Below, one piece after another: positions 13,069 to 35,027 of a stretch of DNA of 51,749 nt. Under the pieces are notes generated by a model. It saw only the letters and a list, made by a program, of their open reading frames with translations. It did not search any database and had not been told where the DNA came from. The stretch is taken from the NCBI RefSeq assembly GCF_000337775.1, contig NZ_AOLQ01000030.1, forward strand, positions 1 to 51,749, read 5' to 3'. The stretch is from Haloarcula vallismortis ATCC 29715. GTDB lineage: Archaea > Halobacteriota > Halobacteria > Halobacteriales > Haloarculaceae. A program made the position numbers and the translations under genes. Position 1 is the first letter of the stretch, and every line of letters begins with the position of its first letter.

Positions 13069-13962
13069 TCACTCAGCGTCCTGAATCACGCAGTCAAGCT
13101 GTATCAGCGTCCGCTCCGGAACCCATTGGCGGAACTCAACGGAGCTCTCGTCGAAGTCGATGCGGACAGTCGGATTCGGAGGAATCGTATCGGCCGTCCG
13201 GAGGCTGAGTCGCACCTGCGCAGTACGCCGTTCCGTGTCACTTCTGGAGAGCAGGTCGTCAACTACCTCGTCTCCACGTACGTCCGCGCGTCCCGAATCA
13301 CCCCGTTCCTCGCCGGTGACGTCGATACGCTCTGTTCCGGCCTCGACGGACGTCACTGAGAGAGACAGCTGTTCGTACGCAGCGACGGCGGCGTCCTCGA
13401 ACCGCCCCCGAAACCCGTCGTCGCGGAACGAGACGGAAGTCCACTCGGACAGGTCAGGGTGATCTCGGAGAGCCTGGACGGTTCCCGCAGCGAGATCACT
13501 ATCGTCTGCCCGGACCGCGAGAAGGTTCGTTCCTGGGTTGAAGGTGGCGACAGTCGTGACGCGCGCGTCCTCCGACACGGAAAGCTGTGCCTGCGTTCCG
13601 TCCTCCGGGACGCTACACACGACGTACACGCGGTCGTGCAGCTCCTCAACCGCGCGAACTTGCCCGCCGAATCCTCCGGAGTCGGTGAGGTCGGCGAGTT
13701 CGGACGGAGACATGTTTGTCAGCCCGGATAGTCGGAAGTAGTGGACCGTTTGTGGAGCCGCGTAGCGCGCCTGGGCAGCCGCTTGGCGGAGTTCGACCTG
13801 TGAGAGTTCATCGAGGAACTGCTCGGGATCGTCATCGTCGCCGAGTTCGCTTTCGATGTCGGCCGCGGCAAGCGCTCGGTGGAGCGCAGCATGAGAGGGG
13901 AGCTCCAACAAAAGATTCACTGGAGACACATCGTCCGCAGTTGGGTTTACAGGGAAGGTCAT
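13069..13962 (-). CDS. Unrecognised acidic haloarchaeal protein
   Basis: This is a 297-residue soluble acidic protein without transmembrane segments, cysteine clusters or a nucleotide-binding motif that I can see. Residues 1-75 are helical and charged. The middle, roughly residues 75-190, alternates short strands and helices (VYVVCSVPED, ARVTTVATFNPGTN). The C-terminal 100 residues look beta-rich (VRLSLRTADTIPPNPTVRIDF). It is transcribed away from the DUF1156 gene that starts 107 bases to its right, so the two share a divergent promoter region. It could belong to the defence island's left edge, but nothing in the protein shows a function. Confidence 0.6.
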   Translation of the reverse strand: MTFPVNPTADDVSPVNLLLELPSHAALHRALAAADIESELGDDDDPEQFLDELSQVELRQAAAQARYAAPQTVHYFRLSGLTNMSPSELADLTDSGGFGGQVRAVEELHDRVYVVCSVPEDGTQAQLSVSEDARVTTVATFNPGTNLLAVRADDSDLAAGTVQALRDHPDLSEWTSVSFRDDGFRGRFEDAAVAAYEQLSLSVTSVEAGTERIDVTGEERGDSGRADVRGDEVVDDLLSRSDTERRTAQVRLSLRTADTIPPNPTVRIDFDESSVEFRQWVPERTLIQLDCVIQDAE

Positions 13963-14031: not shown

Positions 14032-14040
14032 TTTTTATAT
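14032..14040 (+). promoter_or_regulatory. TATA box of the first DUF1156 gene
   Basis: The sequence TTTTTATAT is the strongest AT run in the divergent gap. It lies 29-37 bases before the ATG at 14069, the spacing of a haloarchaeal leaderless promoter. It decides in favour of the ATG at 14069 rather than the upstream in-frame ATG at 14039. Confidence 0.65.
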
Positions 14041-14068
14041 GGCTCGTCCGGATAGAGTGGTACAACTA

Positions 14069-16747
14069 ATGTCTCAACAGGAACAGAGCGAACGGGAAGA
14101 AGCGCGTCCCGATCTCCCTATTGAAGACGGGTTCCCCATTGAGCGTGTCAATGAAATCGCCGAAAAAGAAGGGCGAGCGAAGCAATGGTATCGCCCGATC
14201 TATACTATGCATAAATGGTGGGCACGCCGGCCTGGCTGTCTCTTTCGTGCCATCTCCCTATACTCACTTCTCGACGAAAACACGACCGCAGATGACGTTG
14301 AGGTATACGAGCCGGGAGAGAATCAGCAACTCGGGAACAATGGATTGGACAAGGACGACCTTATCAAGGCGATTGGCAACGTCGATATGGACGATCCAGA
14401 ACCTCTCTGGGGCTTTTATCCGAAAGATGTCAGGATAAAGGATAAGAAGATTCTGGATCCGTTTATGGGTGGTGGAACGTCATTGGGCGAGGCATCCCGT
14501 TTCGGCGTAGATTCGGTCGGTATTGACCTCAACCCAGTTGCATGGTTCATTACTAAGAAGGAACTTGAATCGGGTGAAACTGATGTCGAAGAACTTGAAT
14601 CAGCGTTCGAACAGGTCAAAGGGGACGTAGCCGACGAAATTCTCGAGTACTACAGGACGGACTGTCCTCACGGTGATCACGATGCTGATGTGATGTATTC
14701 GTTTTGGGTGAAAGAAATTGATTGTCGTTCCTGCGGGCACACCATTCCCTTACATCAAGATCTCCGTATCGGGAAGGGACGGTATGAGAATGACGATAAA
14801 TATAACGTACTCTGCCCTGACTGCGATTCAGTTATTTTAGTCGATGATTGGCGTGAAGAATGTGGGTGTCAAGAATGCGGGTACGAGTTTGTGCCTGAGC
14901 AGGGGAACGTCGATTACGGGGATTATATCTGTACAGAATGCGGTCAAAAGTATTCTATCACTGAACAGATTGAAGAGGGGGAAGAGTTCGATCTACGACT
15001 TTACGCTTTGGAATATTATTGTAGGCATTGTGACCAGCAGGGTGCATCGAAGTCAACTACGAAAGGTTATAAATCAGCTTCAGAGCGAGATAGAGAGCGC
15101 TATCGGGAGGCTGAACAAGAATGGAAGAACTCTGAATCTCTTCGTGAGTTCGTTCCGAACAAGTCAATTCGCCCCGGGTGGAAGACCGATGCAACCCAAT
15201 TTGATGGGACTATGCCCGGAAACGGGAATCTACCTCGGCATGGGATCGAAAAATGGACAGATATGTTTAATGACAGGCAGCTTCTGGCTCTTGCTAAACT
15301 TCTTAAGTCCATCAACGATATTGACGATCAAAATACGAAGGAATACCTTCTGCTGACCTTATCTGGGACACTTCGCACAAATTCAATGATGGTTGGCTAC
15401 GATTACTCATACAACAAGATTGTGAATATTTTCAAATCCAACTCGTTTGATCCGCCTCGAGAGATGTGCGAGGGAAATGTATGGGGAACAGAATATGGAC
15501 GAGGCACTTTCGAGTCTATTTGGGAAATGGTGAAGCGGGGGGTGAAATATGCGAATTCACCTACAGAACGCTACGTGAAAGACGGTGAAACACACGAAAC
15601 AGAAGAATTCAGCCAACCATTCGGAAAGAACACCACTATCCACCAAGGGGATATGCGCCTCATTGAGGCTGAAGATGAATATGACGCGGTGATAACTGAT
15701 CCGCCGTACTATAATAATATACTCTACTCTGAACTCTCTGATTTTTTCTATGTTTGGCTAAAGCCAATGCTTGAAGGAGAGTACGATTGCTTCGAGCCTG
15801 AACACACCCCACGTGCTGAGAGTATCGTTGTGAATCCGGCTTCAAACAAGGGTAGTGAAGAGTTTGAGTCAGAGCTAAAACAGGCATTCTCCCGTATTAA
15901 CACGGCGTTGAAAGAGAATGGAACGGTGACCTTCACGTATCACCATAGTAACTCTGAATCTTGGGGAGAACTGCTTGAGTCCCTCTGCGAAACGGGATTC
16001 GAGGTCACCGCTACGTACCCCATCAATTCTGACCTGAACAAATTTATGAAAGGGGAAGCAGTCGCCTTTGATATCGTTATTGTTGCTCGTCCAACAGAAA
16101 GTCGCCAGCCGATCTCATGGGATTCGCTCCGGCGCCGAATCGTCCGAACCGCACGAGAAACCCGTGAAACACTGGAAGAGAATCGAGAACTCGCAAGTGG
16201 GGATATCGGTGTCATCGAGATGGGGAAGTGTTTCCAAGAGTATTCTCAGCATCACGGTGAGGTTCACCGTGCCGGCGATGTAATGTCCGCAAAGGAGGTC
16301 GTTGATGAAATCTACGGCATCATTCAGGACAACGACCGCGGCGAACAGGACATCTATCGGGACCTGCTCGAGGAGTCGAACCCGACGTACAACGACCTGA
16401 ACAAGCACCTCAAGCGGTCGGACGCGTCGGAGGAGCAGATGAAGGACATGCGGCTGTTCCGTATGGAGGGCGGCGACTTCGTCCTCACCAAGTGGGACGA
16501 CGAGAAGCGCCAGGCGTACGTCCAGAGCAAGGTCGAAGAGGGCAACGGCGACCTCACCACGCTGGACAAGGCACACTTCCTCCGCTACCGCTTCGAACAG
16601 GGGAAGTCCACCAGCGAGTACCTCGAAGACTGGGACATGGACGAACTCCGGGAACTCTGCGAGGGGCTGGCGGAAGCAACCGGTGACGAGACGTACCTGA
16701 AGATGATTGGCGTCGATACCTCGCTGGCGGAATTCGGCGAAGAGTAA
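14069..16747 (+). CDS. DUF1156 Zn-ribbon adenine-specific DNA methyltransferase, copy 1
   Basis: This 892-residue protein belongs to the DUF1156 / COG1743 family, predicted N6-adenine methyltransferases with inserted zinc ribbons. The family N-terminus is intact (GFPIERVNEIAEKE, MHKWWARRPGCLF). The SAM-binding motif DPFMGGGTS is at about residues 130-138, with IDLNPVAWF following. The catalytic DPPYY is at 544-548. Between them at least four CxxC pairs form zinc ribbons (for example CRSCG, CPDC, CQECG, CTECG). The first 2.25 kb is clearly AT-richer than the island, while the last 420 bases switch abruptly to GC-rich codons and become almost identical to the end of copy 2. This suggests recombination. 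It presumably methylates host DNA as the self-marking part of a defence system. The short recombinase gene follows after 53 bases. Confidence 0.9.
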   Translation: MSQQEQSEREEARPDLPIEDGFPIERVNEIAEKEGRAKQWYRPIYTMHKWWARRPGCLFRAISLYSLLDENTTADDVEVYEPGENQQLGNNGLDKDDLIKAIGNVDMDDPEPLWGFYPKDVRIKDKKILDPFMGGGTSLGEASRFGVDSVGIDLNPVAWFITKKELESGETDVEELESAFEQVKGDVADEILEYYRTDCPHGDHDADVMYSFWVKEIDCRSCGHTIPLHQDLRIGKGRYENDDKYNVLCPDCDSVILVDDWREECGCQECGYEFVPEQGNVDYGDYICTECGQKYSITEQIEEGEEFDLRLYALEYYCRHCDQQGASKSTTKGYKSASERDRERYREAEQEWKNSESLREFVPNKSIRPGWKTDATQFDGTMPGNGNLPRHGIEKWTDMFNDRQLLALAKLLKSINDIDDQNTKEYLLLTLSGTLRTNSMMVGYDYSYNKIVNIFKSNSFDPPREMCEGNVWGTEYGRGTFESIWEMVKRGVKYANSPTERYVKDGETHETEEFSQPFGKNTTIHQGDMRLIEAEDEYDAVITDPPYYNNILYSELSDFFYVWLKPMLEGEYDCFEPEHTPRAESIVVNPASNKGSEEFESELKQAFSRINTALKENGTVTFTYHHSNSESWGELLESLCETGFEVTATYPINSDLNKFMKGEAVAFDIVIVARPTESRQPISWDSLRRRIVRTARETRETLEENRELASGDIGVIEMGKCFQEYSQHHGEVHRAGDVMSAKEVVDEIYGIIQDNDRGEQDIYRDLLEESNPTYNDLNKHLKRSDASEEQMKDMRLFRMEGGDFVLTKWDDEKRQAYVQSKVEEGNGDLTTLDKAHFLRYRFEQGKSTSEYLEDWDMDELRELCEGLAEATGDETYLKMIGVDTSLAEFGEE

Positions 16748-16800
16748 TCCCGAGCCCGGACTTCGGCACTTCCAGTTTCGGAATCCGAGTATCGGGCGTT

Positions 16801-17472
16801 ATGGCTCCGACACGCGAGAAAGCGCTCACGGAACGGGACTTCGAACGACTTCTCGATGGCGCGCGTCGAATCGACGACGAGACTCAACGGTTCGAAGCTC
16901 ACGCGGTCATCCTGCTAGGGGGGCGGCTCGGCTTTCGGCCGGGAGAACTCACACACTTCGACGAGTCTTGGGTAGATCGGCAGCGCCAGATCGTTCACGT
17001 CCCCGATCACGCTCCTTGTCGGGATGGCCGTGATGGCGAGATCTGTGGCTATTGCCGACAGGCCGTCGAGCAGCGGATACGCCACGACCAAGAGGCGTCG
17101 TTCGACGAGATCGCCGAGCAGTACTGGCAGCCGAAGACGGACGCGGCCTCCCGTCCGATCCCGTTTCACTTCTCCGCGCGGGTGGAGCTCGCCGTCGAGT
17201 CACTCGCCAACGAGTACGGCGGTTGGCCGTATTCGTTTTCGACGCTACAGCGGCGACTCGACGCCGCGCTCGAATGTGCGCGCTCGCTCGATAGAACTTC
17301 GACATCTCTACACGGGCTTCGGGCGACGGCCGCGTCGTATCATGCATCTCGCGGGCTCGAACTGGCCGCCTTCCGGTCGATGTTCGGGTGGGAGGATCTC
17401 GCAACCGCGCGCCAGTACCTCAATATCGACGGGGCGATGACACGCCGTGCGCTCAGTGATATCCACTCGTAG
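16801..17472 (+). CDS. Short tyrosine recombinase/integrase
   Basis: This 223-residue protein contains essentially only the catalytic domain of a tyrosine recombinase. The first arginine lies in GGRLGFRPGELTHF, the H-x-x-R box in LHGLRATAASYHASRG, and the nucleophile region in ATARQYLNIDG near the C-terminus. A Cys-rich insertion (CRDGRDGEICGYC) between motifs is something I associate with haloarchaeal members of the group. It lacks the usual N-terminal core-binding (SAM-like) domain, so it may be truncated or dependent on a partner. It sits between two DUF1156 paralogues in the same orientation. That raises the possibility that it rearranges them, though it could equally be left from integration of the cassette. 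No tRNA gene or clear att direct repeat is visible next to it. Confidence 0.82.
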   Translation: MAPTREKALTERDFERLLDGARRIDDETQRFEAHAVILLGGRLGFRPGELTHFDESWVDRQRQIVHVPDHAPCRDGRDGEICGYCRQAVEQRIRHDQEASFDEIAEQYWQPKTDAASRPIPFHFSARVELAVESLANEYGGWPYSFSTLQRRLDAALECARSLDRTSTSLHGLRATAASYHASRGLELAAFRSMFGWEDLATARQYLNIDGAMTRRALSDIHS

Positions 17473-17808
17473 GGTCTACTGCTTCGCCGTACGGAGACCT
17501 CAGTAGAGTACTACCCGCTGCGCATTCTTCACTTGTGGGGACGTGACTCTCTCTTCTTGAGGGAAGTCTAGTGTCTGACTCTTTGCTTGACGGCGATCCA
17601 TCATTGTAACGTGGTTGCTCAATGAGGCGCAAAAATCTACGGGAACTGGTCAGCCGGGATCTGTGCGATCTAAAGCCCGTTGCTGATTTCGCCGTTATCC
17701 GCTGAGGAATGCGCAGCGGATATTGTGCACGTCGTCCGCGAATTCGTCGAGAAACCGTGTTCCGGGCGCGGATTCAAACTCAAATCGTCCAACTCCCGGT
17801 CAGTATCG
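17473..17808. other. Non-coding gap between recombinase and second DUF1156 gene
   Basis: This is a 336-base stretch. I see no tRNA, convincing hairpin or repeat. The last 129 bases are open in frame with the next gene (from TTG at 17680) but encode an atypical peptide without similarity to the start of the two paralogues. The natural start is therefore the ATG at 17809. No strong TATA box stands out. Confidence 0.5.
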
Positions 17809-20472
17809 ATGACCCGCGACGGACGGACTGGCGGGGACGAGGACACCTCGCTGCCCATTGAGCGCGGTTTTCCCATCGAGCGGGTGAACGAGATAGCCGA
17901 GAAAGAGACTCGGGCGAAACAGTACTACCGCCCCATTTACACGATGCACAAGTGGTGGGCACGCCGCCCGGGTTGCCTGTTCCGTGCCATCTCGCTATAC
18001 TCGCTCCTCGACGAGAATACGACCGCGGATGACGTCGAGGTGTACGAGCCCGGTGAGAACCAACAGCTGGGGAGTACCGGACTGGACGAGTACGATCTCG
18101 TCGAGGCGATCGGCGATGTGGATATGGACGATCCCGAATCGCTGTGGGATTTCTATCCGAAGGACGTCCGCATCAAGGACAAGAAGATTCTGGACCCGTT
18201 CATGGGTGGCGGGACGTCGCTCGTCGAAGCGTCACGATTCGGGGTGAAGTCCCGCGGGATGGATCTAAACCCCGTCGCGTGGTTCGTGACAAAGACGCAG
18301 CTCGAAGCCGGGCAAGTCGATGTTGACGAACTACAACAGGCCTTCGAGCGATTGAAAGACGACGTAGCAGAGGAAATCCTCGAATACTACCGTACGCCCT
18401 GCCCGAACGGTGACCACGACGCCGACGTGATGTACAATTTCTGGGTCAAGGAACTCGACTGCGTCTCCTGCGGACACACAGTTTCACTCCTGAAGGACTA
18501 CCGTGTTGCGTCCGGGCGGTACGAAGACGATGGGAAATACTACGTATTCTGCCCGGATTGCGGAACGGTGACCCTGAGTGAGGATTGGCACGAGGAGAGC
18601 CACTGTCACGAATGCAACTACGAGTTTGTCCCCGAAGATGGACCGGTCACCCGTGGCGGTTACTACCACTGCTCGGAGTGTGGCCAGAAAGAATCCATCA
18701 CTGACGCTATTGCTGATCAGGGATCGCCGGAGAAACGGCTCTACGCCGTCGAGTACTACTGCGAACATTGCGACCAACAAGGGTTGGAGAAGAGTTCGTA
18801 CAAAGGTTACAAACAACCAGACCCCGCTGATGAACGCCTCGTTGAGGAAGCGAAGCGGGAGTGGGAAACTCGAACGGACTTACACGACTACGTACCTGAT
18901 GAGCAGATTCCGGAGGGCGCTATCACGGCGGCTTCAGCGATAAGTGGAAACGACGTGTTCCAGCATGGAATCGAGAAGTGGACAGACATGTTCAGCGAGC
19001 GCCAGCTTCTCAATCTGGCAAAGATGATGCAGGCCATTGATCGTATCGACGGGAAGTCCAGTGATTACCTCCTGCTGGCGCTCTCGGACTCGCTCCTATC
19101 CTACAACCTTCTGACGATGTACAATTACTCGGCCAACAAGGTCGAATCCGCGCTCGCCCGTATGAAGGCGTTCCCGCCCCAGAACGATATGATCGAGGGG
19201 AATCTCTGGGGGACCGAGTTCGGCCGGGGAACGTTCCGTAACATATGGGATATGGTTATTCGAGGCGTTGAGTACGCGAATGCACCGACGGAACGGTACG
19301 TCGAGGATGGGGAGACGAAGGAGACGCCAGAGTTTGCCCAACCAATTGGCAACGGTTCCGAAGTCTACCAAGGTGATATGCGGCTCATCGATGCCACTGA
19401 CGAGTACGACGCTGTGATCACTGACCCCCCGTACTACGACAACATCATTTACTCCGAAGTAGCGGACTACTTCTACGTCTGGCAGAAGATTCTACTTGAA
19501 GACAAGTATCCGGGTTTCGACCAAGAGAAGACGCCGCGAGCGGACTCAATTGTGACTAATCCGTACCTGGGGAAGACCGCAGAGGACTTCGAACACGAGA
19601 TGGGTGAGGCGCTCGCTGTAATCAACGAGGCTCTCAAGAGTGACGGGATGCTCGCATTCACGTACCATCACAGCGATGAAGAGTCGTGGGGCGAACTCCT
19701 CGAATCGCTCTGTGAGAATGACTTCGAAGTGACGGCGACGTATCCGATCAACTCTGACCTGACCAAATTCATCGGTGGCGAAGCCGTCGCGTTCGATATC
19801 GTTATCGTCGCACGTCCCACAGAGGATCGACAGCCGATTTCGTGGGATTCGCTACGCCGCCGCATCGTACGAACGGCCAGAGAAACCCGTGAAACACTCG
19901 AAGAGAATCGGGAACTCGCCGGCGGAGACATCGGCGTCATTGAGATGGGGAAGTGCTTCCAGGAGTACTCTAAGCACCACGGCGAGGTCCACCGCGCCGG
20001 GGAGTTGATGTCCGCGAAGGATGTCGTCGATGAGATTTACGGCATTATCCAGGACAACGACCGAGGTGAGCAAGATGTTTATCGAGATCTTCTCGACGTA
20101 AATGACGCAACGTACAACGACCTGAACAAGCACCTCAAGCGGTCGGATGCGTCCGAGGAGCAGATGAAGGAGATGCAGTTGTTCCGGTTGGATAATGGTG
20201 ACTTCGTCCTCACCCAGTGGGACGACGAGAAGCGCCAAGCGTACGTCCAGAGCAAGGTCGAAGAGGACAACGGCGACCTCACCACGCTTGACAAGGCCCA
20301 TTTCCTCCGCTATCGCTTCGAGCAGGGAAGGTCAATCAGCGAATACTTCGACCGGTGGGACGCTGACGAACTCCGAGAACTCTGTGAGGGGCTGGCAGAA
20401 GCGACCGGCGACGAGACGTACCTAAAGATGATCGGCGTCGATACCTCGCTGGCCGAGTTCCGTGACGAATAG
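17809..20472 (+). CDS. DUF1156 Zn-ribbon adenine-specific DNA methyltransferase, copy 2
   Basis: This 887-residue close paralogue of copy 1 is alike over nearly its full length. The N-terminal MHKWWARRPGCLFRAISLYS box is identical. The SAM motif DPFMGGGTS is at about residue 129 and the catalytic DPPYYDN at about 539. The zinc-ribbon cysteine pairs are conserved (CVSCG, CPDCG, CHECN, CSECG). The middle region, after the zinc ribbons, differs most from copy 1 and may be where target specificity resides. The 3' 400 bases are nearly identical to copy 1. An in-frame upstream TTG at 17680 would add 43 residues unlike the family, so the ATG at 17809 is preferred. It converges on the dGTPase gene with a 15-base gap. 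Expected role: host DNA methylation within the DUF1156/DUF499 system. Confidence 0.9.
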   Translation: MTRDGRTGGDEDTSLPIERGFPIERVNEIAEKETRAKQYYRPIYTMHKWWARRPGCLFRAISLYSLLDENTTADDVEVYEPGENQQLGSTGLDEYDLVEAIGDVDMDDPESLWDFYPKDVRIKDKKILDPFMGGGTSLVEASRFGVKSRGMDLNPVAWFVTKTQLEAGQVDVDELQQAFERLKDDVAEEILEYYRTPCPNGDHDADVMYNFWVKELDCVSCGHTVSLLKDYRVASGRYEDDGKYYVFCPDCGTVTLSEDWHEESHCHECNYEFVPEDGPVTRGGYYHCSECGQKESITDAIADQGSPEKRLYAVEYYCEHCDQQGLEKSSYKGYKQPDPADERLVEEAKREWETRTDLHDYVPDEQIPEGAITAASAISGNDVFQHGIEKWTDMFSERQLLNLAKMMQAIDRIDGKSSDYLLLALSDSLLSYNLLTMYNYSANKVESALARMKAFPPQNDMIEGNLWGTEFGRGTFRNIWDMVIRGVEYANAPTERYVEDGETKETPEFAQPIGNGSEVYQGDMRLIDATDEYDAVITDPPYYDNIIYSEVADYFYVWQKILLEDKYPGFDQEKTPRADSIVTNPYLGKTAEDFEHEMGEALAVINEALKSDGMLAFTYHHSDEESWGELLESLCENDFEVTATYPINSDLTKFIGGEAVAFDIVIVARPTEDRQPISWDSLRRRIVRTARETRETLEENRELAGGDIGVIEMGKCFQEYSKHHGEVHRAGELMSAKDVVDEIYGIIQDNDRGEQDVYRDLLDVNDATYNDLNKHLKRSDASEEQMKEMQLFRLDNGDFVLTQWDDEKRQAYVQSKVEEDNGDLTTLDKAHFLRYRFEQGRSISEYFDRWDADELRELCEGLAEATGDETYLKMIGVDTSLAEFRDE

Positions 20473-20487
20473 TGCCTCGGAAGACCT

Positions 20488-22113
20488 CTATTGCCGCATA
20501 ATTGTGTCCTGAAGGGACCCGGGCCGCGCCCCTGACATTCGTTCATACATCTCGACGGCCTGTGTCTCGGTCATGTTCGAGATCATGTCGGCTACAATGC
20601 GAGCCCGTGCAGGATCGTCGTCCTCGTTGGTGTTGCTCAGCCGTTCACGATAGGGTTCCAGTATCGCGGACGTATCGACCGAGTTCGGCGCTGCTTCGTC
20701 GTACAACAGTTCGAACAGCTCGTCGATGACCTGAATTTGTCCTCTTTGCTGTCCCCGGAGGGTCGGATTACTGATGACGTAGTAGAAGGTCAACTGTTTT
20801 AGAATCTCGATTTCCTGTCGTAGCTCGTTGTCTACGACCAGTGTCGGATTGCTATCAGCGTCGTGTTCGCCGAGTTCGACGTATTCTCTGTCGTCGGGGT
20901 CCTCCTCGGTCGCCTCAAGGTACCAACTGATCATAGACGATGAGAACTCGTTCAGGAGGTTGCGTTCTGACTGGGACCCCTCGTATGGCGTATAGAACTC
21001 TTCGACGACCGTCGCAAAATCACGGAGTTCTACGAAGAAAGAGAGGACGTCCTCGATTGACGCATCGACGTCTGTGTCGTCGTCGATGTACTGGCCGAAA
21101 TCGTGGAGTTTCATGTCGTACGACTCGGCATATGATCGGAGCAAGTCGGTATGCTGCTCGATATCGTCGTCTTCACCAAAGTCGTCCGGGAGCTGATTGC
21201 GGAGTTCTCCCGCTTCTCGCAGCAATTGGTCGAAGGGGAGCAGCCCACTTCGGTAGAAATCCTCGACGTCATGAATCGCATACGTCAGGTCGTCGGCGTA
21301 GTCCATTATCTCGGCCTCGAGGATCTTGTTCCGGCCGTCAGCGGTCCCAGCTCGCGCGAAATCGAAGTACCCCTCTTCCGACGGATAGTATCCCCACTTG
21401 TCGTCTGTGTCTTCGTCCGTATTGGCGTCTGCCGCCCTCGACCAGGGATACTTCTGGATGGCGTTGAGGGTCGCCCTAGTCAGATCAATACCTTCGATAC
21501 CCGAGCGATGCGACCCCAAGCGGGTCACGGCACGGAACGATTGTGCGTTCCCCTCGAACCCCTGTACCTCTGATTCGTCTTGTTCCCCACTGTCGTGGTT
21601 TTTGTTGCTCCCCTTATTTTCACCATCTCTTCCGTCGCCGTCCGTGTCTTCGCAGTTTTCCTCTTCTTCGTCTTCACTCGACTTTTCCCTCACTTTGTCA
21701 TCAAGAAGCTCTTCGATCTCGTGACCGAATGGTGGGTGGCCGATGTCGTGAGCCAGACACGCTGTCTCGACAACTTCAGGGTCGAGATAATTCTCGAGGT
21801 TCCCGAACTCGTCCTCATAGAAATCCTCAAGCAGTTCGGCGAGTCTTCGCCCGACCTGTGCGACCTTCAGTGAGTGAGTCAATCGGTCGTGATACAGGTA
21901 TGACTCACCCGCGCGAGCGACCTGCGTGACATCCTTGAGCCGACGGAACTCTCGACTGTACAGGATCCGATCCCGGTCTCGCTCGAATGGACGCCTCTGA
22001 TCTTCCGTATCACGGTTTACACTCTTTCCCGACTCTTTTTCTGGATCGTACCCGGAACTCAAATCTTGATCGAGATCTGATGGGCGGCGATCACGAGGAA
22101 AGTCCGCTGTCAT
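20488..22113 (-). CDS. dGTPase-family HD-domain dNTP triphosphohydrolase
   Basis: This 541-residue protein has the full HD metal-binding set of the Dgt/SAMHD1-like family, which cleaves dNTPs to deoxynucleoside and triphosphate. The set is H80 in DRLTHSLKV, H122-D123 in CLAHDIGHPPFGHE, and the distal aspartate in EAEIMDYADDLTYAIHD. The preceding SREFRRLKDVTQV and the following ATLNAIQKYPWS are typical of dGTPases. An unusual insertion of about 45 residues, very rich in E, D, N, G and S, follows the HD motif and precedes FEGNAQSFRAV. It is transcribed with a small winged-helix protein 11 bases upstream. Bacterial dGTPases are known antiviral enzymes that empty the dNTP pool. Here it sits between DUF1156 copies 2 and 3, next to the DUF499 ATPase, so a defence role is likely but inferred. 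Confidence 0.9.
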   Translation of the reverse strand: MTADFPRDRRPSDLDQDLSSGYDPEKESGKSVNRDTEDQRRPFERDRDRILYSREFRRLKDVTQVARAGESYLYHDRLTHSLKVAQVGRRLAELLEDFYEDEFGNLENYLDPEVVETACLAHDIGHPPFGHEIEELLDDKVREKSSEDEEEENCEDTDGDGRDGENKGSNKNHDSGEQDESEVQGFEGNAQSFRAVTRLGSHRSGIEGIDLTRATLNAIQKYPWSRAADANTDEDTDDKWGYYPSEEGYFDFARAGTADGRNKILEAEIMDYADDLTYAIHDVEDFYRSGLLPFDQLLREAGELRNQLPDDFGEDDDIEQHTDLLRSYAESYDMKLHDFGQYIDDDTDVDASIEDVLSFFVELRDFATVVEEFYTPYEGSQSERNLLNEFSSSMISWYLEATEEDPDDREYVELGEHDADSNPTLVVDNELRQEIEILKQLTFYYVISNPTLRGQQRGQIQVIDELFELLYDEAAPNSVDTSAILEPYRERLSNTNEDDDPARARIVADMISNMTETQAVEMYERMSGARPGSLQDTIMRQ

Positions 22114-22124
22114 CTAAAACGATG

Positions 22125-22358
22125 CTACGCGGTCGCAGAAACGTCACTTGCGAGCTTATATTTGAAACCAGGAGTAGTCGAGATCATCCCCTCGTCGATC
22201 ATCGTCCGGAGAACCTGCTTTGCTTCTCTCCGGTCCTCGACGGAGGTTTCGTTGAGCAGATAGTTGATGCTCACAGCCTCGCTTCGATCAGAGAGTTTCT
22301 CGATGAATTCCGATCTAAGGCTTTCCTGTGAGATCGCTGTTTCTCTGGCGCTCATCAC
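22125..22358 (-). CDS. Small winged-helix protein in operon with the dGTPase
   Basis: This 77-residue protein is built of helices followed by a two-strand wing (VLRTMIDEGMISTTPGFKYKL), the shape of a minimal winged-helix DNA-binding or protein-interaction domain. It precedes the dGTPase gene by 11 bases in the same direction and faces the DUF499 gene across a shared 162-base promoter region. It may therefore regulate either transcript, or act as a small control subunit of the dGTPase. ATG at 22358 or 22355 could be used. The TATA box at 22383-22391 suits either. Confidence 0.65.
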   Translation of the reverse strand: MMSARETAISQESLRSEFIEKLSDRSEAVSINYLLNETSVEDRREAKQVLRTMIDEGMISTTPGFKYKLASDVSATA

Positions 22359-22382
22359 ACGCAGATTTTCTGCCCGGCTACA

Positions 22383-22391
22383 CTTATAATC
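22383..22391 (-). promoter_or_regulatory. TATA box of the wHTH-dGTPase operon
   Basis: On the minus strand the sequence reads GATTATAAG, 25-33 bases upstream of the ATG at 22358. This matches a leaderless archaeal promoter. The divergent DUF499 gene has a weaker candidate around 22486-22495 (TTCATAAGG). Confidence 0.6.
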
Positions 22392-22520
22392 TGTTATCGG
22401 CCGGATCCTCTATCGCGCCGTTAGATCCGGGTCATCACCGCACTGGTATCGGTACTGACCGCGACAGGACGTTTAGATGTCGCACATTCATAAGGCGATG
22501 CCCCATCTTATCGGACAACG

Positions 22521-25500
22521 ATGAGTGCGGACGCCATTCCTGAGACGACGATCGACGAGACCCTGACGCTCAGTCGGGAGCTCACGGAGGGGGATAGCCT
22601 TGTCAAGGGCCAGATTCGCCTCTACGACGTAGAGAGTGACGCGGGAACCCTCGAGTCTGATGCAGAGCGCTTCTTTGACCGGACGCTCCTGACCGAAGGG
22701 CTTGAGGACTCGCTGAAACGCCTCCGGGACACGATCCAGGGCGAGGACAACACGCGCATCCACGAGATGTACGGCCCCTACGGGACGGGGAAGTCCCATC
22801 AGATGGTGGCGATGTATCACTGCTTCGACGCCCCGGGAACTGTCGAAGAGTGGGCCGACGGTCGCATCGAAGGACTAGATGATACGCTCCCGCGTGATGC
22901 CCTCCCGGTCGTCGTCTCCCTCCAGAAAGAGCAGTACGAGCACCTGTGGGAGCCGCTTTTCGAAGCCCTCGACTACGACCTCGACGAGTCCGAGTACGAG
23001 GACGGCGGCTACCCTGATATCGACACGATCACCGACGCCGTCGGCGACCGGACGGTCGCGTTCCTCGTGGACGAACTTGAGGACTGGTTCGGATCACTCG
23101 AGGGTCGCCGCAAGAGCGCGAACAAGGGCTTCCTCCAAGCGCTACTCGAGGCGACCTCGCGCACGAACCTCTTCGCTATCATCTCCGTGCTGCGCGAAGG
23201 ATCCGATGTCCACGACATCCTGTCCCGCCAGGAGCGCGTCGAGGTCAACATGTCCAACCAAGTCGATATCCGGGAGGTGCTGCGCCACCGCCTCGTCGAG
23301 CCCGGTTCCATCGACCAATCGAAGATGCGCGACTTGGTTGACGAGTACATCGAGGCCTACGCCGAAACGGACTACGTTGACCTCCCGGACGGCCTCCGTG
23401 ACGAGATGTACGAAACGTACCCGTTCCATCCGGAACTCATCGACGCGCTCAAGACGCGGTACTTCGCCGAGACCGAGTCGGGCGCGACCCGGGGAATGCT
23501 CTATCTCTTCGCGAAGGTTCTCGTTGACCGTCACCAGCAGACCGACCTCATCACTCACGGTGAGGTTGACGCCGTCGAGTACAACGACGAACTCACCCGC
23601 ATCAACGTCGAACACGCCCGCCCCGACCGCTGCTACGACGACATCGTCGAACGCCTCGCCGACGCGGACATCGACTACGGCCGCGACATCCTCAGCACGG
23701 TCCTCATCTACTCGCTCACGCCCGGTCTCGACGAGGGCGCGACGACGTCGGACATCGTCGTCGGCACGTTCCACGCCGGCGACCGCGTCAACGACATCAT
23801 CGTCGATCTCGAGCGCCTCCAGGGCGAGGTCTACCACCTGTGGCAGTCCGACGACCGCTTCGTCATCCGAGAGGACGAGAACCCGCGGTCACTGATTCGG
23901 AACGCCGCCCGCGACGTCGAGCCGGGGGAGGCGATCGAACTCATCGGCGACACCGTCGAACGCCTGTTGGGCTCCAACTCGTCCGCGGTCGGGTTCAACG
24001 AGGACGGCGAACTGGAGAGCGTCCCGGACAGTCAGAACGTCAAGGTCGTCGTGAAGAACGGTCCGTGGGACGCCGACAGCGTCGCCGAGATCATCAAGAA
24101 CCAGCCCGCCGGCCGCCAGTGGCGCAACACGCTCGTGTTCGTCCAGCCGAAGAACGGCAAGACCATCTCGACGACGTCCCAGCAGGAGAAGTTCCTCAGT
24201 AAGGCCCGGGAGGTCATCGGAGCGCGGCTCCGTGAGGACGACCAGAACCTGAGCGAGGAGATACGCGAGGATATCGCGGAGCTCAAAGGCGAGTACGAGG
24301 ACGACCTCCTCGACCGCTTGGAGGGCGCGTACGGAGAGGTCATCGACGGCGACGACCTGCTCAACGAGTTCGAATACGCCGCGGAGATGACGCTTGAGAA
24401 CTTCGTCGCCGCGGAGGACGAACTCGACGCCGGGAACATCGCGGCCGCTGCCGAAGCGGACCCGTTCGACCTCCAGCGCCATGCTTGGGACATCGTCCGC
24501 GACCGTCTCGACAGCCGCTCCGAAACCTCCGTCGAAGACATCTACGAACAGTTCCTGATGGACCCGACGTATTCGATCCCGGGCAGCGTGCAGGCGGTCG
24601 CCAACGCCGTCGAGGACGGCCTAGACGACAAGCCCGTGCTCGCCCACGACGGGAGCCAGTTCAGCGACGAACTCCGGAACCTCGACCGCGACACGACCCT
24701 CGTCCTGGAAGAGGAAGTGGACAAGTGGTCGGTGGACGACATCACGTCCACGCTCCAGCGCGAGTTCAGCGGCGGCACCACGGAGGTCGATATCGGCTCG
24801 TTCGAGCTCGAAGTCCTCGAGCGGACGGACGTCTGGATCGTCGATGACGACCCCCACGACGCGATCATGCGCGCGGTCGGTCGGCTCGCCAACGAAGACC
24901 ACTACGTCCTGGTGAGCGGCAACGAGATCGTCTCCAAGGCTCGGTCCGACGCGAAGCTCCGGGACGTCTCGGACGCGCGCGAGATTGGCGCTCCCGAGGT
25001 AAGCGAGCGTATCGAGGAGACCATCGACGCCGCCGGCGAGGCCGACACGTCCCAGGTCCTCACCGCGATCAGGAACGACACCGAGGTGTACCTCCCGCAG
25101 GACGACACCGAAGGCGCGTTCCACGGGGCCGTGAACACGCTGCTGTCCGAGGGCTATAAGCTCAAAACCGAGGGCGACTACGTCGGTTCGCTGGGCGACC
25201 GCGACCCGACAGCCGTCGTGATCGTGCCGATGGTTCCCGACAACGTCGGCGAGCGCATCCTGGAGTACATCGGCGATCTCGACGAGGAAGCGACGTTCCA
25301 AGTGGGAGACGTTCAGAGGGAGTGCGCCCCGGACCACGACGAGTCCGCGGTTCAGCACTTCCTCCTCGACCACCTCGGCGAGAGCGACCCGCACTACGTC
25401 GTGGGAGCGACCGGATCCGAAGATCCCGGCGACTGGTTCCCAGGAGCCGGCTTCCGTATCCCGCCCGAGACCGGATGGACGTTCGAGTATCAGGGCAACA

Positions 25501-25748
25501 ATCCGTCTGAACTCCGCGACAAGTGGCAGGACTCCCACGAGTCGGGCTCGGTCGCCTACGGATCGGTATCGTTCACGACGGAGGGCGACAGCGGTGCGCC
25601 CGAGTCGCTTCAGGGCGTCGCTGAGTTCCAGAAGGCACACACGGACCTCCAGCTCGAACTCGGCCAGTCACACGAGACGGTCGCCGATCTCCTCGAGAAT
25701 ATCCCGGAGTCCGCCTCCGGCATCGACGTCACGATTCAGTTCGAGTGA
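22521..25748 (+). CDS. DUF499-type AAA+ ATPase
   Basis: This 1,075-residue P-loop ATPase resembles the DUF499 / COG1483 family. The Walker A motif GPYGTGKS is at residues 85-92, preceded by EMY. A Walker B motif VAFLVDELEDWF has its Asp-Glu at 184-185, and a sensor-like region LFAIISVLREGSD follows. The C-terminal half (after about residue 450) is helical and acidic, with repeated alpha/beta wing-like modules (EVYLPQDDTEGAFHGAVNTL), suggesting DNA- or protein-binding domains. DUF499 ATPases are known neighbours of DUF1156 methylases in prokaryotic defence islands. Here DUF1156 copy 3 follows after 39 bases in the same direction. The likely role is the energy-using, possibly DNA-translocating core of the system. 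The gene is strongly GC-rich, unlike copy 1. Confidence 0.85.
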   Translation: MSADAIPETTIDETLTLSRELTEGDSLVKGQIRLYDVESDAGTLESDAERFFDRTLLTEGLEDSLKRLRDTIQGEDNTRIHEMYGPYGTGKSHQMVAMYHCFDAPGTVEEWADGRIEGLDDTLPRDALPVVVSLQKEQYEHLWEPLFEALDYDLDESEYEDGGYPDIDTITDAVGDRTVAFLVDELEDWFGSLEGRRKSANKGFLQALLEATSRTNLFAIISVLREGSDVHDILSRQERVEVNMSNQVDIREVLRHRLVEPGSIDQSKMRDLVDEYIEAYAETDYVDLPDGLRDEMYETYPFHPELIDALKTRYFAETESGATRGMLYLFAKVLVDRHQQTDLITHGEVDAVEYNDELTRINVEHARPDRCYDDIVERLADADIDYGRDILSTVLIYSLTPGLDEGATTSDIVVGTFHAGDRVNDIIVDLERLQGEVYHLWQSDDRFVIREDENPRSLIRNAARDVEPGEAIELIGDTVERLLGSNSSAVGFNEDGELESVPDSQNVKVVVKNGPWDADSVAEIIKNQPAGRQWRNTLVFVQPKNGKTISTTSQQEKFLSKAREVIGARLREDDQNLSEEIREDIAELKGEYEDDLLDRLEGAYGEVIDGDDLLNEFEYAAEMTLENFVAAEDELDAGNIAAAAEADPFDLQRHAWDIVRDRLDSRSETSVEDIYEQFLMDPTYSIPGSVQAVANAVEDGLDDKPVLAHDGSQFSDELRNLDRDTTLVLEEEVDKWSVDDITSTLQREFSGGTTEVDIGSFELEVLERTDVWIVDDDPHDAIMRAVGRLANEDHYVLVSGNEIVSKARSDAKLRDVSDAREIGAPEVSERIEETIDAAGEADTSQVLTAIRNDTEVYLPQDDTEGAFHGAVNTLLSEGYKLKTEGDYVGSLGDRDPTAVVIVPMVPDNVGERILEYIGDLDEEATFQVGDVQRECAPDHDESAVQHFLLDHLGESDPHYVVGATGSEDPGDWFPGAGFRIPPETGWTFEYQGNNPSELRDKWQDSHESGSVAYGSVSFTTEGDSGAPESLQGVAEFQKAHTDLQLELGQSHETVADLLENIPESASGIDVTIQFE

Positions 25749-25787
25749 GACGCACATCTAAATACGATACCGAGCCCATCATTCCCC

Positions 25788-28406
25788 ATGTCTGATTCGA
25801 ACGCTTCGCGGTCTGATCTCCCCATCGAGCGCGGGTTTCCCATCGAGCAGGTGAACGACCTAGCCGACCGTGAGGGCCGGGCGAAACTCCACTACCGGCC
25901 GCTGACGACCATGCACAAGTGGTGGGCCCGGCGGCTCGGCTGTGTCTTTCGTACGATTTCGCTGTACTCGCTCGTCTCCGATCCCGACCGAGTCTCCGTT
26001 CGAGACCCGGACAAGGAGGATCACGACCTCACAGAGTTCGACGAAGCGTCCGAAAGAGCGGACACGGCAGATATCAAGGAGATGATCGAGAGCGTCGATT
26101 TGGCCAACCCCGACGCCATGTGGGATCTCTACTCCAAGGACATCCGTGTCGAAGACGCCGACGTTCTGGACCCGTTCATGGGCGGCGGGACGAGCCTCCT
26201 CGAAGCGATCCGATTCGACGCGGACGTGACCGGTGTCGATCTGAACCCCGTCGCGTGGTTCATCACGAAGAAGGAGCTCGAGGCCCACAGCGTCGATCCC
26301 GACGAACTCCGAGACGCTTTCGAGGACGTCGAGGACGCGGTCGCCGAGGAACTCCAGTCCCAGTACGAGACAGCGTGTCCCAACGACGAAAGTCACGTCG
26401 CCGATGCTGTCTACGCGTTCTGGGTCAGGGAACTCGACTGCACGTCTTGCGGCGAGACGGTCCCGCTGTTCAAGGACTACCGAGTCGCCAAGGAGAGGTA
26501 CGGGAACGACAATAGATATCACGTCTATTGCCCGGATTGTGGGAACATCTTCCTGACGGACGATTATCAGACTGAGACGATTTGCCCGGATTGTAGCAAT
26601 GAATACGTCCCGGAGAATGGCCCCGTTTCCCGGGGTGGAAATTACGGCTGCCCTTCGTGCGGTCTAAAGTACCCAATCGTGGATGCGATCGCCGACGGCC
26701 AATCGTACGCTGAGTCTCTCTATGCCCTCGAGTATTACTGCACCGAGTGTGAGGACGAGGGGAAAGATCGCCCAACATACAAGGGATACAAACAAGCGAA
26801 CGAAGAAGACATCGAGCGTTACGAACGGGCAGCCGATAGCTGGAGGAGCGAAGATACCCTCGCCGACTATGCTCCGCAAGGGGACATCCCCGAGGGTGCG
26901 ATTACGACTTCGTCATCGGTCAGCGGAAACGACGTCTTCCGTCACGGATACGAATCGTGGCAGGACATGTTCAACGACCGCCAGCTGTACTGCCTCTCGA
27001 CGCTCCTCCGCGCGATCGACGAGGAAGTAGACGATCAAACCATCAAGGAGTACCTTCTGCTGGCGTTCTCGGACTCGCTGATGTTTCAGAACAACTTCTC
27101 TACCTACAATATCAACGCCACGAAGATCAAGGGAATATTCCGAAAGAATTCGTTCATGCCTACGGTTGAGTACGTGGAGAACAACGTTTGGGGGACGAAG
27201 GCTGGCCTCGGAACGTTCAGCAATACCTGGGCGAAAATCGTTGATGGCGTCGAGTTTGCTCACTGGCCTACGGAGCGATACATCAAAAACGGGGATAATG
27301 AGGAGACCGCGCCGTTCGAGAAGCCCGTTGGAGGCGAGTACACGATACATCAAGGCGACCTGCACGACGTGGATCTGGAGTCGGAGTACGACGCGATTAT
27401 CACCGATCCTCCGTACTACGACAACGTCGTCTATTCCGAGGTCTCCGACTTCTTTTACGTCTGGCAGCGTCTGTTACTCGGTGACGAATACGAGGGTTTC
27501 TCGCCCGAAACAACCCCGCGCGAGGAGAGCATCGTCGCCAACCCGGCAGAGGGGAAAGATTCAGATTCGTTCGAATCAGAACTTAGAAGCGCGTTTTCGC
27601 GGATGCGCGAAGTTCTATCGGACGACGGCGTTCTTGTGTTCACGTATCGACACGGCGACGAGGATACCTGGGGAACGCTTCTCGAATCACTGTGCGACGA
27701 AGGCTTCGACGTTACCGCGACGTATCCGATTTCCGCGAACCTCAGCGAGTTCGTCGTCGGCGACGAACTCAACTTCAGTGTCGTCGTCGTCGCTCGTCCG
27801 GCGACGAACCGAGAGCCAATTAGTTGGTCGTCGCTCCGCCGGCGTGCTCACCGGGGCGCGAGCGAGACGCGTGAAAAGATTCAGGCCGGACAGACGCTCT
27901 CTGAGGGGGATATCAGCATCGTCGAGATGGGGCGCTGTTTCCGCGAGTACTCGAACCACCACGGGAAGGTACATCGCGGGGGAACAGTGATGTCGACGAC
28001 GGAGATAGTCAGCGAGATCTACGACATCATCTCCGGGAACGTCACACCGGACGAGATCTACCTCGACCTCCTCGAGATGGACGAGCCCACCCTCGACGAC
28101 GTGACTCGGTTCTGTCGAGGGACCGATATCGACCCCGATGATCTTCGGCGACGCGCCCTGTTCGTTACTGACGACGGTTTCGAGTTGACGGACTGGCGTG
28201 CAGAAGAGCGAATCGAATACCTCCGCGGGCGATCCACAGAGGAATTGACGCCGCTCGAAGGAGTGCAGTTACTTCGCTATCGGGACGCGCAAGACGTGAA
28301 GCCAACTGATGAACAGCGTGACCTCAACGTGACCTCGGAAATGATCGACGTCGCAGAGGAACTGGCGACGCTGACTGGAGACGAGGGCTACGAGGCCCTC
28401 TTCTAA
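25788..28406 (+). CDS. DUF1156 Zn-ribbon adenine-specific DNA methyltransferase, copy 3
   Basis: This 872-residue protein is the most divergent of the three paralogues but keeps the family marks. These are GFPIEQVNDLADREGRAK, MHKWWARRLGCVF, the SAM motif DPFMGGGTS at about residue 128, the catalytic DPPYYDN at about 540, and zinc-ribbon pairs (CTSCG, CPDCG, CPDCS, CPSCG). The C-terminal domain, after about residue 700, is shorter and only weakly like copies 1 and 2. It follows the DUF499 ATPase by 39 bases and is probably co-transcribed. A TATA-like TCTAAATACG around 25759 could add an internal promoter. Because of its position it is probably the original partner of the DUF499 ATPase, with copies 1 and 2 as additional specificities. 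That order of acquisition is inference. Confidence 0.9.
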   Translation: MSDSNASRSDLPIERGFPIEQVNDLADREGRAKLHYRPLTTMHKWWARRLGCVFRTISLYSLVSDPDRVSVRDPDKEDHDLTEFDEASERADTADIKEMIESVDLANPDAMWDLYSKDIRVEDADVLDPFMGGGTSLLEAIRFDADVTGVDLNPVAWFITKKELEAHSVDPDELRDAFEDVEDAVAEELQSQYETACPNDESHVADAVYAFWVRELDCTSCGETVPLFKDYRVAKERYGNDNRYHVYCPDCGNIFLTDDYQTETICPDCSNEYVPENGPVSRGGNYGCPSCGLKYPIVDAIADGQSYAESLYALEYYCTECEDEGKDRPTYKGYKQANEEDIERYERAADSWRSEDTLADYAPQGDIPEGAITTSSSVSGNDVFRHGYESWQDMFNDRQLYCLSTLLRAIDEEVDDQTIKEYLLLAFSDSLMFQNNFSTYNINATKIKGIFRKNSFMPTVEYVENNVWGTKAGLGTFSNTWAKIVDGVEFAHWPTERYIKNGDNEETAPFEKPVGGEYTIHQGDLHDVDLESEYDAIITDPPYYDNVVYSEVSDFFYVWQRLLLGDEYEGFSPETTPREESIVANPAEGKDSDSFESELRSAFSRMREVLSDDGVLVFTYRHGDEDTWGTLLESLCDEGFDVTATYPISANLSEFVVGDELNFSVVVVARPATNREPISWSSLRRRAHRGASETREKIQAGQTLSEGDISIVEMGRCFREYSNHHGKVHRGGTVMSTTEIVSEIYDIISGNVTPDEIYLDLLEMDEPTLDDVTRFCRGTDIDPDDLRRRALFVTDDGFELTDWRAEERIEYLRGRSTEELTPLEGVQLLRYRDAQDVKPTDEQRDLNVTSEMIDVAEELATLTGDEGYEALF

Positions 28407-28448
28407 CCTTGGTGCACTTTGATACCTCCGTAATTCGAGGACGACATC

Positions 28449-28844
28449 ATGAGTGATATCGATGCCGTCGCGGGGATGTACAATATCGTCGATCGAGAGA
28501 GGCGTGAGACAGCTGACTATCAGGTCCCTGTCGAGGAGTTCATAACGATGCTCGAGAGCCACGATATGCCACAGGAGATCTGTGTGGTGGGGCTCGACGA
28601 TGTCTTAGCCAGAGACGAGAAACTACAGGAGTACCTCATTGATACGATGCGCCGAGAAATGGATTACCTCAACGGTCAGCGACCACTGCCAACCGTTCAA
28701 TTTACAGTTGAAGGCGAGTTCCAGAGCGTCAGGGACTCCTTCGAAGTCGAAATAGACGGAGAGTTCTATGGTCTCAGTCCCGTTTTCGGACGGCAGATGA
28801 AGCAGCGAGAACCCGGCTGGTTGGTGACGACATTTAGGATATAA
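28449..28844 (+). CDS. Unrecognised small acidic protein following DUF1156 copy 3
   Basis: This 131-residue protein follows the third methyltransferase by 42 bases on the same strand, so it may be the last gene of that operon. It has an N-terminal helical half (VEEFITMLESHDMPQEICVVG) and a beta-rich C-terminal half (LPTVQFTVEGEFQSVRDSFEVEIDG). No metal-binding or nucleotide motif is visible. I do not recognise a family. Similar-sized helper proteins often accompany DUF499/DUF1156 genes, but I cannot tie this sequence to any of them by motif. Confidence 0.6.
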   Translation: MSDIDAVAGMYNIVDRERRETADYQVPVEEFITMLESHDMPQEICVVGLDDVLARDEKLQEYLIDTMRREMDYLNGQRPLPTVQFTVEGEFQSVRDSFEVEIDGEFYGLSPVFGRQMKQREPGWLVTTFRI

Positions 28845-28887: not shown

Positions 28888-29670
28888 TCAATTTAACATA
28901 AATGAGAGGACTTCCAGAATATCTTCTCCTTCATCAGTCAACTGGTATCGATTCTCGTCACCTCGTGGGATCATTTTCACGTACCCCCACTCGAGCAGGG
29001 GATCGAGCACCTTCTCGTCGGCCGGGTCATAGTAATGTCGAACTTCGGAGCGCTCATACTCAGACAGTAGGGAAAGATCCATAGAGAACTCTACTACCTC
29101 TCGTTTTATCACGTATCCCCGGTCAGTTGCCTCCTCCTGTATGAATTCCAAAACTCGAAGGAAGTCCCGATGAGGGCTGCTGAAAGGATATTGGGGGAGT
29201 GTCTGTGGATCTTGAATGTCTGTAGCAATCTGCTCCCCATAGTATGATTCTGCTCGCACATAATAGGGAGTTGCATCTGTGGAAGTCGCTGCTATCGCTC
29301 CTGCAATGGCGGTAATCTTACTTCCTGTAGTAATATTCAGATAGATTTCCGTGTTGTCGGACTGATAGCGTGTAATCACATCACCAGCCCCCAGAACTGC
29401 ACTATTCAGATCGAAGAAATCACATTCTGTTATCTCAACGTCAATATCTTCCTCTTCTAGCTTGCGTCGGACCTCGTCCCGGCAAGCCCTCCCTTTGGAG
29501 ATATCCTCATCTATACTTTCCTCAGCGGATTCTTCAGAGTTTGAGACGGTCTCCCCATTGTGTGCTATCAGGATGACCTTGTCTGCATTACTTTCTATTG
29601 GGGGACGATAGACTCGCTCGCGTTCGTATCCCTGAAAGGCGATATGAACCTGTTCTGTCCCCAGATACAC
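28888..29670 (-). CDS. CARF-like winged-helix regulator (HFX_2341/DUF6293-like)
   Basis: This 260-residue protein starts with a Rossmann-like domain (QVHIAFQGYERERVY ... ADKVILIAHNG). It carries the phosphate-binding-like loop LNITTGSKITAIAGAIAA at about residues 113-130, the position where CARF domains have their N-T-G-G-T-K loop. The C-terminal 90 residues are a winged helix ending in a strand-turn-strand (WGYVKMIPRGDENRYQLTDEGEDIL). This two-domain layout is that of the archaeal HFX_2341-like regulators, thought to sense a nucleotide second messenger. No CRISPR or cyclase gene lies in the window, so the ligand is unknown. It faces the gene at 29835 across a 164-base region with G/C-run repeats, likely its operator. 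Confidence 0.78.
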   Translation of the reverse strand: MYLGTEQVHIAFQGYERERVYRPPIESNADKVILIAHNGETVSNSEESAEESIDEDISKGRACRDEVRRKLEEEDIDVEITECDFFDLNSAVLGAGDVITRYQSDNTEIYLNITTGSKITAIAGAIAATSTDATPYYVRAESYYGEQIATDIQDPQTLPQYPFSSPHRDFLRVLEFIQEEATDRGYVIKREVVEFSMDLSLLSEYERSEVRHYYDPADEKVLDPLLEWGYVKMIPRGDENRYQLTDEGEDILEVLSFMLN

Positions 29671-34890: not shown

Positions 34891-35027
34891 TGTCAGAACC
34901 TCATATAATGTCACCGCTCAGCTCCTCCATCGTCTGGAGAATATCTCGGTGATTGGGAACCGAATTTTCTGACCCCAGCAGCGGTATCTACACAACGCAT
35001 TTGACAGTCAGAGCTATCTATGCAGGT

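Follow-up and report, generated by a model that had tools for sequence, protein, structure and literature searches.

Systems that combine a DUF499 ATPase, a DUF1156 methyltransferase and a helicase are already known (PMC8565338, PMC7641849, PMC12839542), and among the DUF499-centred, BREX-related systems Type-3 is defined by PglZ, an iSTAND protein and a nuclease-free BrxHII-like helicase (PMC12839542). McrBC has been noted alongside methyltransferases and DISARM-like systems, without DUF499 (PMC11090510), and the main text of PMC12839542 makes no mention of McrBC. The locus described here belongs to Haloarcula vallismortis ATCC 29715 and lies on the 51.7-kb contig C30, the whole of which constitutes the window analysed; the genome measures 3.9 Mb. 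Between positions 14039 and 37965 the window carries all of seven core gene families, namely the DUF499 ATPase, the DUF1156 methyltransferase (1-3 copies per locus), a 131-residue protein termed p131, McrB, McrC, an SNF2 helicase and a 398-residue partner protein. We predict, with a probability of roughly two in three, that these genes encode a haloarchaeal DUF499-centred, BREX-related (Hma-like) restriction-modification system nearest the PglZ-type (Type-3) branch, in which McrBC would act on unmarked DNA and PglZ is absent. No text pairing DUF499 with McrBC, the split helicase and p131 was found in the literature, the supplements, which may hold one, lying outside that search.

A recurrent set of seven gene families

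Genes in the window were assigned by Pfam, PADLOC and NCBIfam profile scans. The plus strand carries the DUF1156 N6-adenine methyltransferase M1 (14039..16747), the DUF1156 methyltransferases M2 (17809..20472) and M3 (25788..28406), the DUF499 AAA+ ATPase (22521..25748), p131 (28449..28844), a 610-residue SNF2/RapA-type helicase (34953..36785) and the 398-residue coiled-coil/zinc-ribbon protein (36769..37965). The open reading frame of M2 reaches a TTG at 17680, the ATG at ~17809 being the likelier start. On the minus strand are an McrC-type PD-(D/E)xK nuclease (30824..32704; PF10117, 2.6e-7) and an McrB-type AAA+ GTPase (32613..33845), and the likely start of McrC at ~32620 gives the two genes an 8-nucleotide overlap. 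Catalytic motifs are intact in M1-M3, DUF499, SNF2, McrB and McrC.

The survey covered 243 genomes of the order, searched with DUF499 and six other window proteins, and DUF499 homologues, counted at an identity of at least 46%, are present in 39 of them. Stretches of 25-40 kb were fetched around most of the 42 loci and all gene models were clustered into families. The seven families occur in 38-42 of the 42 haloarchaeal loci, from DUF499 in all 42 to the SNF2 helicase in 38, and the next commonest neighbour in 11. p131, McrC, the 398-residue protein and the SNF2 helicase are found in essentially the same genomes, and in the same places, as DUF499. With genome sets counted by hand from the protein searches, McrC is present in 38 of the 39 DUF499 genomes and, at comparable similarity, in none of the 204 others (Fisher p ~1e-43; the count is of the close subfamily and leaves out distant McrCs and a degraded copy in G067). 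The corresponding figures are 38/39 and 2/204 for p131, and 37/39 and 1/204 for the helicase and its 398-residue partner. The SNF2 helicase is the best conserved component (71-83% identity). The gene content was replicated in loci named by organism, all from Halobacteria, many of which overlap the first set. That the seven families form one system is well supported. Degraded or partial exceptions are G211, which has DUF499 alone, and G180, with a methyltransferase in pieces and no helicase. The locus of Halospeciosus flavus (L125, 8000-22000) has a methyltransferase in three pieces with insertions, and its helicase pair is missing. Viral contigs searched for DUF499 relatives yielded none.

Gene order differs between clades. 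In clade A, the window type, it runs M2, DUF499, M3, p131, McrC/McrB on the opposite strand, SNF2 and the 398-residue gene. In clade B the 398-residue and SNF2 genes are reversed and precede DUF499, followed by one methyltransferase, p131 and McrC/McrB, and in a third arrangement the methyltransferase adjoins the helicase. One genome (G061) has a minimal seven-gene locus without interruptions, and gaps between core genes hold 69 different families of at least 150 residues. These arrangements bear on the possibility that the locus is a defence-rich plasmid segment inherited en bloc without functional unity. Many loci are indeed on plasmids, and the window contig also encodes ParA, Orc1/Cdc6 and PolB, which suggests that it is plasmid-derived, as well as a Shedu-like gene; a terminal overlap that would indicate a circular contig was looked for and none was seen. 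However, conservation does not extend to the flanks, some of the loci are found on contigs as large as 3-4 Mb, and the seven families stay while their order shifts. An order that varies between clades, a constant content and the 69 gap families argue against simple shared descent of a plasmid segment, and we regard this explanation as very improbable.

A first-pass annotation of this DNA had proposed a system extending over 14032-28844 that included a dGTPase and a recombinase. Core genes do lie within these limits, but the span is too short, since McrC/McrB (30824-33845) and the helicase pair (34953-37965) were missed. Of the proposed members, DUF499, DUF1156 and p131 are conserved, whereas the dGTPase and the recombinase fall outside the conserved set. 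The idea of a DUF499/DUF1156 defence system that marks self and differs from both classical BREX and DISARM is supported, as is p131 being a real part of it. The statement in that annotation that no such system had been described does not hold: DUF499, DUF1156 and a helicase have been reported together under the name Hma (PMC8565338) and among the DUF499-centred BREX-related systems (PMC12839542).

Relationship to BREX-related systems

No DUF1156 genes other than M1, M2 and M3 were found in the genome, and all three score above the PF06634 cut-off (3.4e-10 for M1, which also matches HmaB at 8.2e-39). They display an intact motif I (DPFMGGGT) at approximately residue 140, DPPYY (the DPPY motif) at ~553 and several CxxC pairs in between, as in a DUF1156 fold with a nested zinc-finger insert. 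In a tree of 69 methyltransferases, M3 and its clade A counterparts directly 3' of DUF499 constitute a single, fully supported orthologous group. M2 falls in a second group, whose clade A members lie upstream of DUF499, and M1, an extra copy, is the sister of the M2 group. Most loci have one methyltransferase and only 7 of the 42, as counted on gene-order maps, have three, so that the trio represents variation and not definition. Conservation within the family dips to 0.45-0.56 at residues ~250-550, the zinc-finger target-recognition region, compared with 0.6-0.7 on either side, which is consistent with different motifs. Shuffling of target-recognition domains between M1 and M2 by the adjacent recombinase was considered and rejected, the two genes being only 72-74% identical at the DNA level and having neither near-identical tracts nor inverted repeats.

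The DUF499 protein is an HmaC/BrxC-like ATPase (PF04465, 1.3e-11, 43.5 bits against a cut-off of 23; HmaC, 1.4e-17) whose Walker A and Walker B motifs read GPYGTGKS and DELE. A compact operon of DUF499, a ~300-residue protein, a DUF1156 methyltransferase and a ~130-residue protein occurs in ten haloarchaeal DUF499 loci that are less closely related (28-30% identity). The ~300-residue protein is PglZ-like: its PF08665 matches are marginal and below cut-off (5.7e-4 and 0.021), its MD..S.RE and DHGY motifs are invariant, and it is clearly homologous (hidden Markov model (HMM) match 2.6e-18; hhalign 98.4%) to its counterpart in Klebsiella and Ensifer operons, which have the Type-3 layout of DUF499, PglZ-like protein, DUF1156, small protein and SNF2. 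An HMM of this PglZ-like protein matches all 10 PglZ-type loci and none of the McrBC-type loci, and the Pfam PglZ profile (PF08665) gives no match in the genome of the window itself. In the DUF499 tree the McrBC-type loci are monophyletic (100/99), and McrBC- and PglZ-type loci fall on one side with Type-1 and Type-2 representatives apart (100/99, with a warning from the tool of long branches). The compact PglZ-type operon is present in L175, L176, L177 and L110-L119, and the 17-20 kb examined around each revealed no SNF2 helicase like that of the window.

p131, which the first-pass annotation had also left unrecognised, has no acceptable match in Pfam, NCBIfam or PADLOC, and an HMM recognises it in 41 clade A and B loci. 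It is homologous to the small ~130-residue protein that sits downstream of the methyltransferase in PglZ-type loci (hhalign 97.9%, E 4.4e-13), with HMM matches in all ten. The AlphaFold2 model of p131 has a predicted local distance difference test (pLDDT) score of 93.6; Foldseek revealed no significant match in the PDB, and none was found among viral structures. An assignment to DUF3780 was rejected, neither Pfam nor hhalign against a DUF3780 protein giving a match. Homology to the haloarchaeal small protein, gene position and weak P-loop-like fold matches suggest that p131 is a candidate iSTAND-like sensor, corresponding to the fast-evolving iSTAND of Type-3 systems.

Among solved structures, the nearest to the SNF2 protein is RapA (1.8e-39); the protein would supply the N-terminal half of a split BrxHII-like helicase. 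The 398-residue protein aligns co-linearly over 251 columns with the C-terminal thirds of four full-length (~1000 residues) haloarchaeal BrxHII-like helicases (hhalign 92.8%, E 3.9e-7). It was also modelled with AlphaFold2, and a Foldseek search of the PDB returned no significant match. It is probably the C-terminal half of the split helicase; the homology is only probable because the alignment is partly coiled coil and Foldseek gave no significant match. Pfam identified no nuclease domain in either protein. A second haloarchaeal pair was observed in L168-L173, where an SNF2 protein 54-59% identical to that of the window is followed by a protein of 675-1185 residues that starts with the 398-residue domain. 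DUF499, McrC and DUF1156 were not found near this pair, which is possibly another undescribed system.

Compared with the DUF499-centred Type-3 systems (PMC12839542), the locus shares DUF499, DUF1156, an SNF2/BrxHII-like helicase without fused nuclease, a small fourth protein adjoining the methyltransferase and the same side of the DUF499 tree. It differs in the absence of PglZ, the presence of McrB-McrC, a helicase in two genes and, in some loci, extra methyltransferases. Hma (PADLOC; PMC8565338), or BREX-related Type-1, likewise comprises helicase, methylase and ATPase, and the HmaB and HmaC profiles match. In contrast, the window system has no helicase-nuclease fusion and has p131 and McrBC in addition. 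The NCBIfam profiles DUF1156_antiphage (152 against a cut-off of 1000) and DUF499_antiphage (57 against 1200) fall far below threshold. DUF499 and DUF1156 are also common to BREX-related Type-2, which is distinguished by DUF3780 and an HKD-nuclease helicase, whereas no DUF3780 and no PLD/HKD domain was found here. BREX (Types 1-6) resembles the locus in its methylation genes, BrxC-like ATPase and BrxHII-like helicase, but no PglZ was found and no BrxL or BrxA is present among the scanned genes. For DISARM, DrmA and DrmB (YprA helicase, DUF1998) were not found among the scanned open reading frames, and DrmD/DrmA profile matches reflect the shared SNF2/SF2 helicase fold only. Type IV McrBC and methyltransferase-associated McrBC (PMC11090510) have the same NxxD GTPase and PD-DxK nuclease; in the window system the pair is tied to a DUF499/BREX-related complex and has no modified-base reader domain that could be found.

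McrBC and the predicted mechanism

The canonical NxxD signature of McrB and the PD...DSK residues of McrC are kept in 40/40 homologues, and the latter implies selection for cutting. McrBC normally cuts modified DNA. No modified-base-binding domain was recognised in McrB by Pfam or NCBIfam, although a reader of an unfamiliar kind may be present; this result favours control by the DUF499 complex rather than the action of a classical type IV enzyme. Of the competing explanations the strongest, which we nevertheless hold to be unlikely, is that two systems cooperate: a BREX-related module with its own unrecognised effector, and a type IV McrBC attacking those modified virus DNAs that escape the first. 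McrB and McrC are a separate minus-strand pair, and a plasmid is known on which BREX and a type IV enzyme act in a complementary manner (PMC8565348). Against this stand the near-absolute mutual dependence of McrBC and DUF499 set out above and the McrB without a known reader domain; moreover, the module deprived of McrBC would have no recognisable nuclease, because neither the helicase nor its partner carries one. A further proposal assigns the effector role to the helicase alone, which might for instance block or strip replication, with McrBC only clearing debris. It would fit the high conservation of the helicase and the restriction of phage by BREX through inhibition of phage DNA replication, as stated in PMC13326643, but the retention of the McrC catalytic residues in 40/40 homologues speaks against it, and we consider it improbable.

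The prediction of a DUF499-centred restriction-modification system with McrBC as its nuclease draws, for its mechanism, on established knowledge of BREX, BREX-related systems and McrBC, from which methylation, the order of events and the role of McrBC as effector are inferred by analogy. The DUF1156 methyltransferase or methyltransferases would mark host DNA with N6-methyladenine, each at its own motifs, and extra copies with diverged middle regions would add or change motifs. The DUF499 ATPase, p131 and the two-part SNF2/RapA-type helicase would assemble on DNA and check for the marks. On unmarked DNA the complex would activate McrBC, whose GTPase would translocate while the PD-DxK nuclease cuts. 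Such an arrangement may have originated by a PglZ-to-McrBC effector swap. Whether the loci represent a distinct BREX-related subtype, seen in these searches only among haloarchaea, with a McrBC that replaced PglZ and was rewired to cut unmarked DNA under the control of DUF499, p131 and the split helicase, we judge on sequence grounds to be evenly balanced.

Several observations weigh against the proposed system. The genome-level tests take no account of relatedness between genomes. The absence of PglZ is known from profile searches, and PglZ evolves fast. The best fold matches of p131, mostly RecA/AAA-type P-loop proteins, are not significant (E of at least 0.13), and p131 was not detected as a homologue of the bacterial 166-residue counterpart. 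Finally, the McrBC genes run in the opposite direction, and the pair may be an independent type IV system kept in the same island.

Variable cargo, flanking genes and significance

Four further genes of the window, a tyrosine recombinase (16801..17472, plus strand; PF00589, 2.7e-6), a dGTPase-family HD triphosphohydrolase (20488..22113, minus strand; TIGR01353, 1.6e-78), an HFX_2341-like regulator with CARF and winged helix-turn-helix (wHTH) domains (28888..29670, minus strand; Pfam/PADLOC scans) and a PDC-S18/DUF5655 candidate defence protein (34003..34890, plus strand; PADLOC PDC-S18, 6.2e-132), are passengers that occupy variable cargo slots. Elsewhere some slot families are defence-like, including GmrSD/DUF262, Gabija GajA-like, Fic, Mrr, CARF and HEC-05/06. 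That the core locus may also be a site where accessory defence genes land and are exchanged is part of the same evenly balanced reading. In the two plasmids that were checked, recombinase relatives have different surroundings, in one case next to a DNA methyltransferase of another type, and in L125 a recombinase 71% identical to that of the window lies directly upstream of DUF499.

The dGTPase was central to the first-pass annotation, which envisaged methylation and DNA inspection followed by deoxynucleotide depletion. The enzyme is intact, belongs to a family with anti-phage members (NCBIfam antiphage_dGTPase, 2.3e-66, below cut-off) and is placed between M2 and DUF499. However, it is on the opposite strand, is beside none of the 41 other loci and none of 44 named loci, and several clade A relatives have nothing in its slot, the others carrying different genes there. 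dGTPase genes occur in 2 of the 39 genomes with DUF499 and 13 of the 204 without (Fisher p=1), and in G026, the sole further DUF499 genome that has a dGTPase, ~550 kb separate the two genes. The co-occurrence of DUF499, DUF1156 and dGTPase, which the first-pass annotation itself had set as a test, fails for the dGTPase and holds for genes that it had left out. The dGTPase is rejected as effector and is a passenger, a separate cargo gene, and depletion as the mechanism is scarcely credible. Nor was a winged-helix partner of the dGTPase borne out, the only nearby winged helix being that of the CARF regulator, outside the proposed span and, relative to the dGTPase, beyond the methyltransferases.

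Other neighbours lie outside the core. A 297-residue protein (13069..13962, minus strand), a possible accessory, occurs in 9 of 42 loci, beside clade A, with 39-45% identity among clade A relatives and no match in NCBIfam or Pfam. A pair encoding a helix-turn-helix protein and a nucleotidyltransferase (1793-3159) is AbiE-type toxin-antitoxin-like, and its homologues lie directly upstream of DUF499 in L140 and L157. An AddAB-like UvrD-type helicase and PD-(D/E)XK nuclease (3218-10034) follow; the UvrD homologue is the 11-locus neighbour counted above, and in L177 such a pair comes after the PglZ-type locus as well. A Shedu (SduA C-terminal) homologue (38301-39353) adjoins the system on its other side.

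The role of PglZ in BREX has long been unclear, and evidence that it has nuclease activity has emerged recently. A naturally occurring relative that has lost PglZ and carries a well-understood pair of nuclease and translocase instead would provide independent evidence that PglZ fills a cutting role, and the McrBC version offers an activity that can be measured. The unannotated 131- and 398-residue proteins, hypothetical in dozens of haloarchaeal genomes, would be placed in a defined system, and a BREX-like system would become testable in archaea with virus-host pairs.

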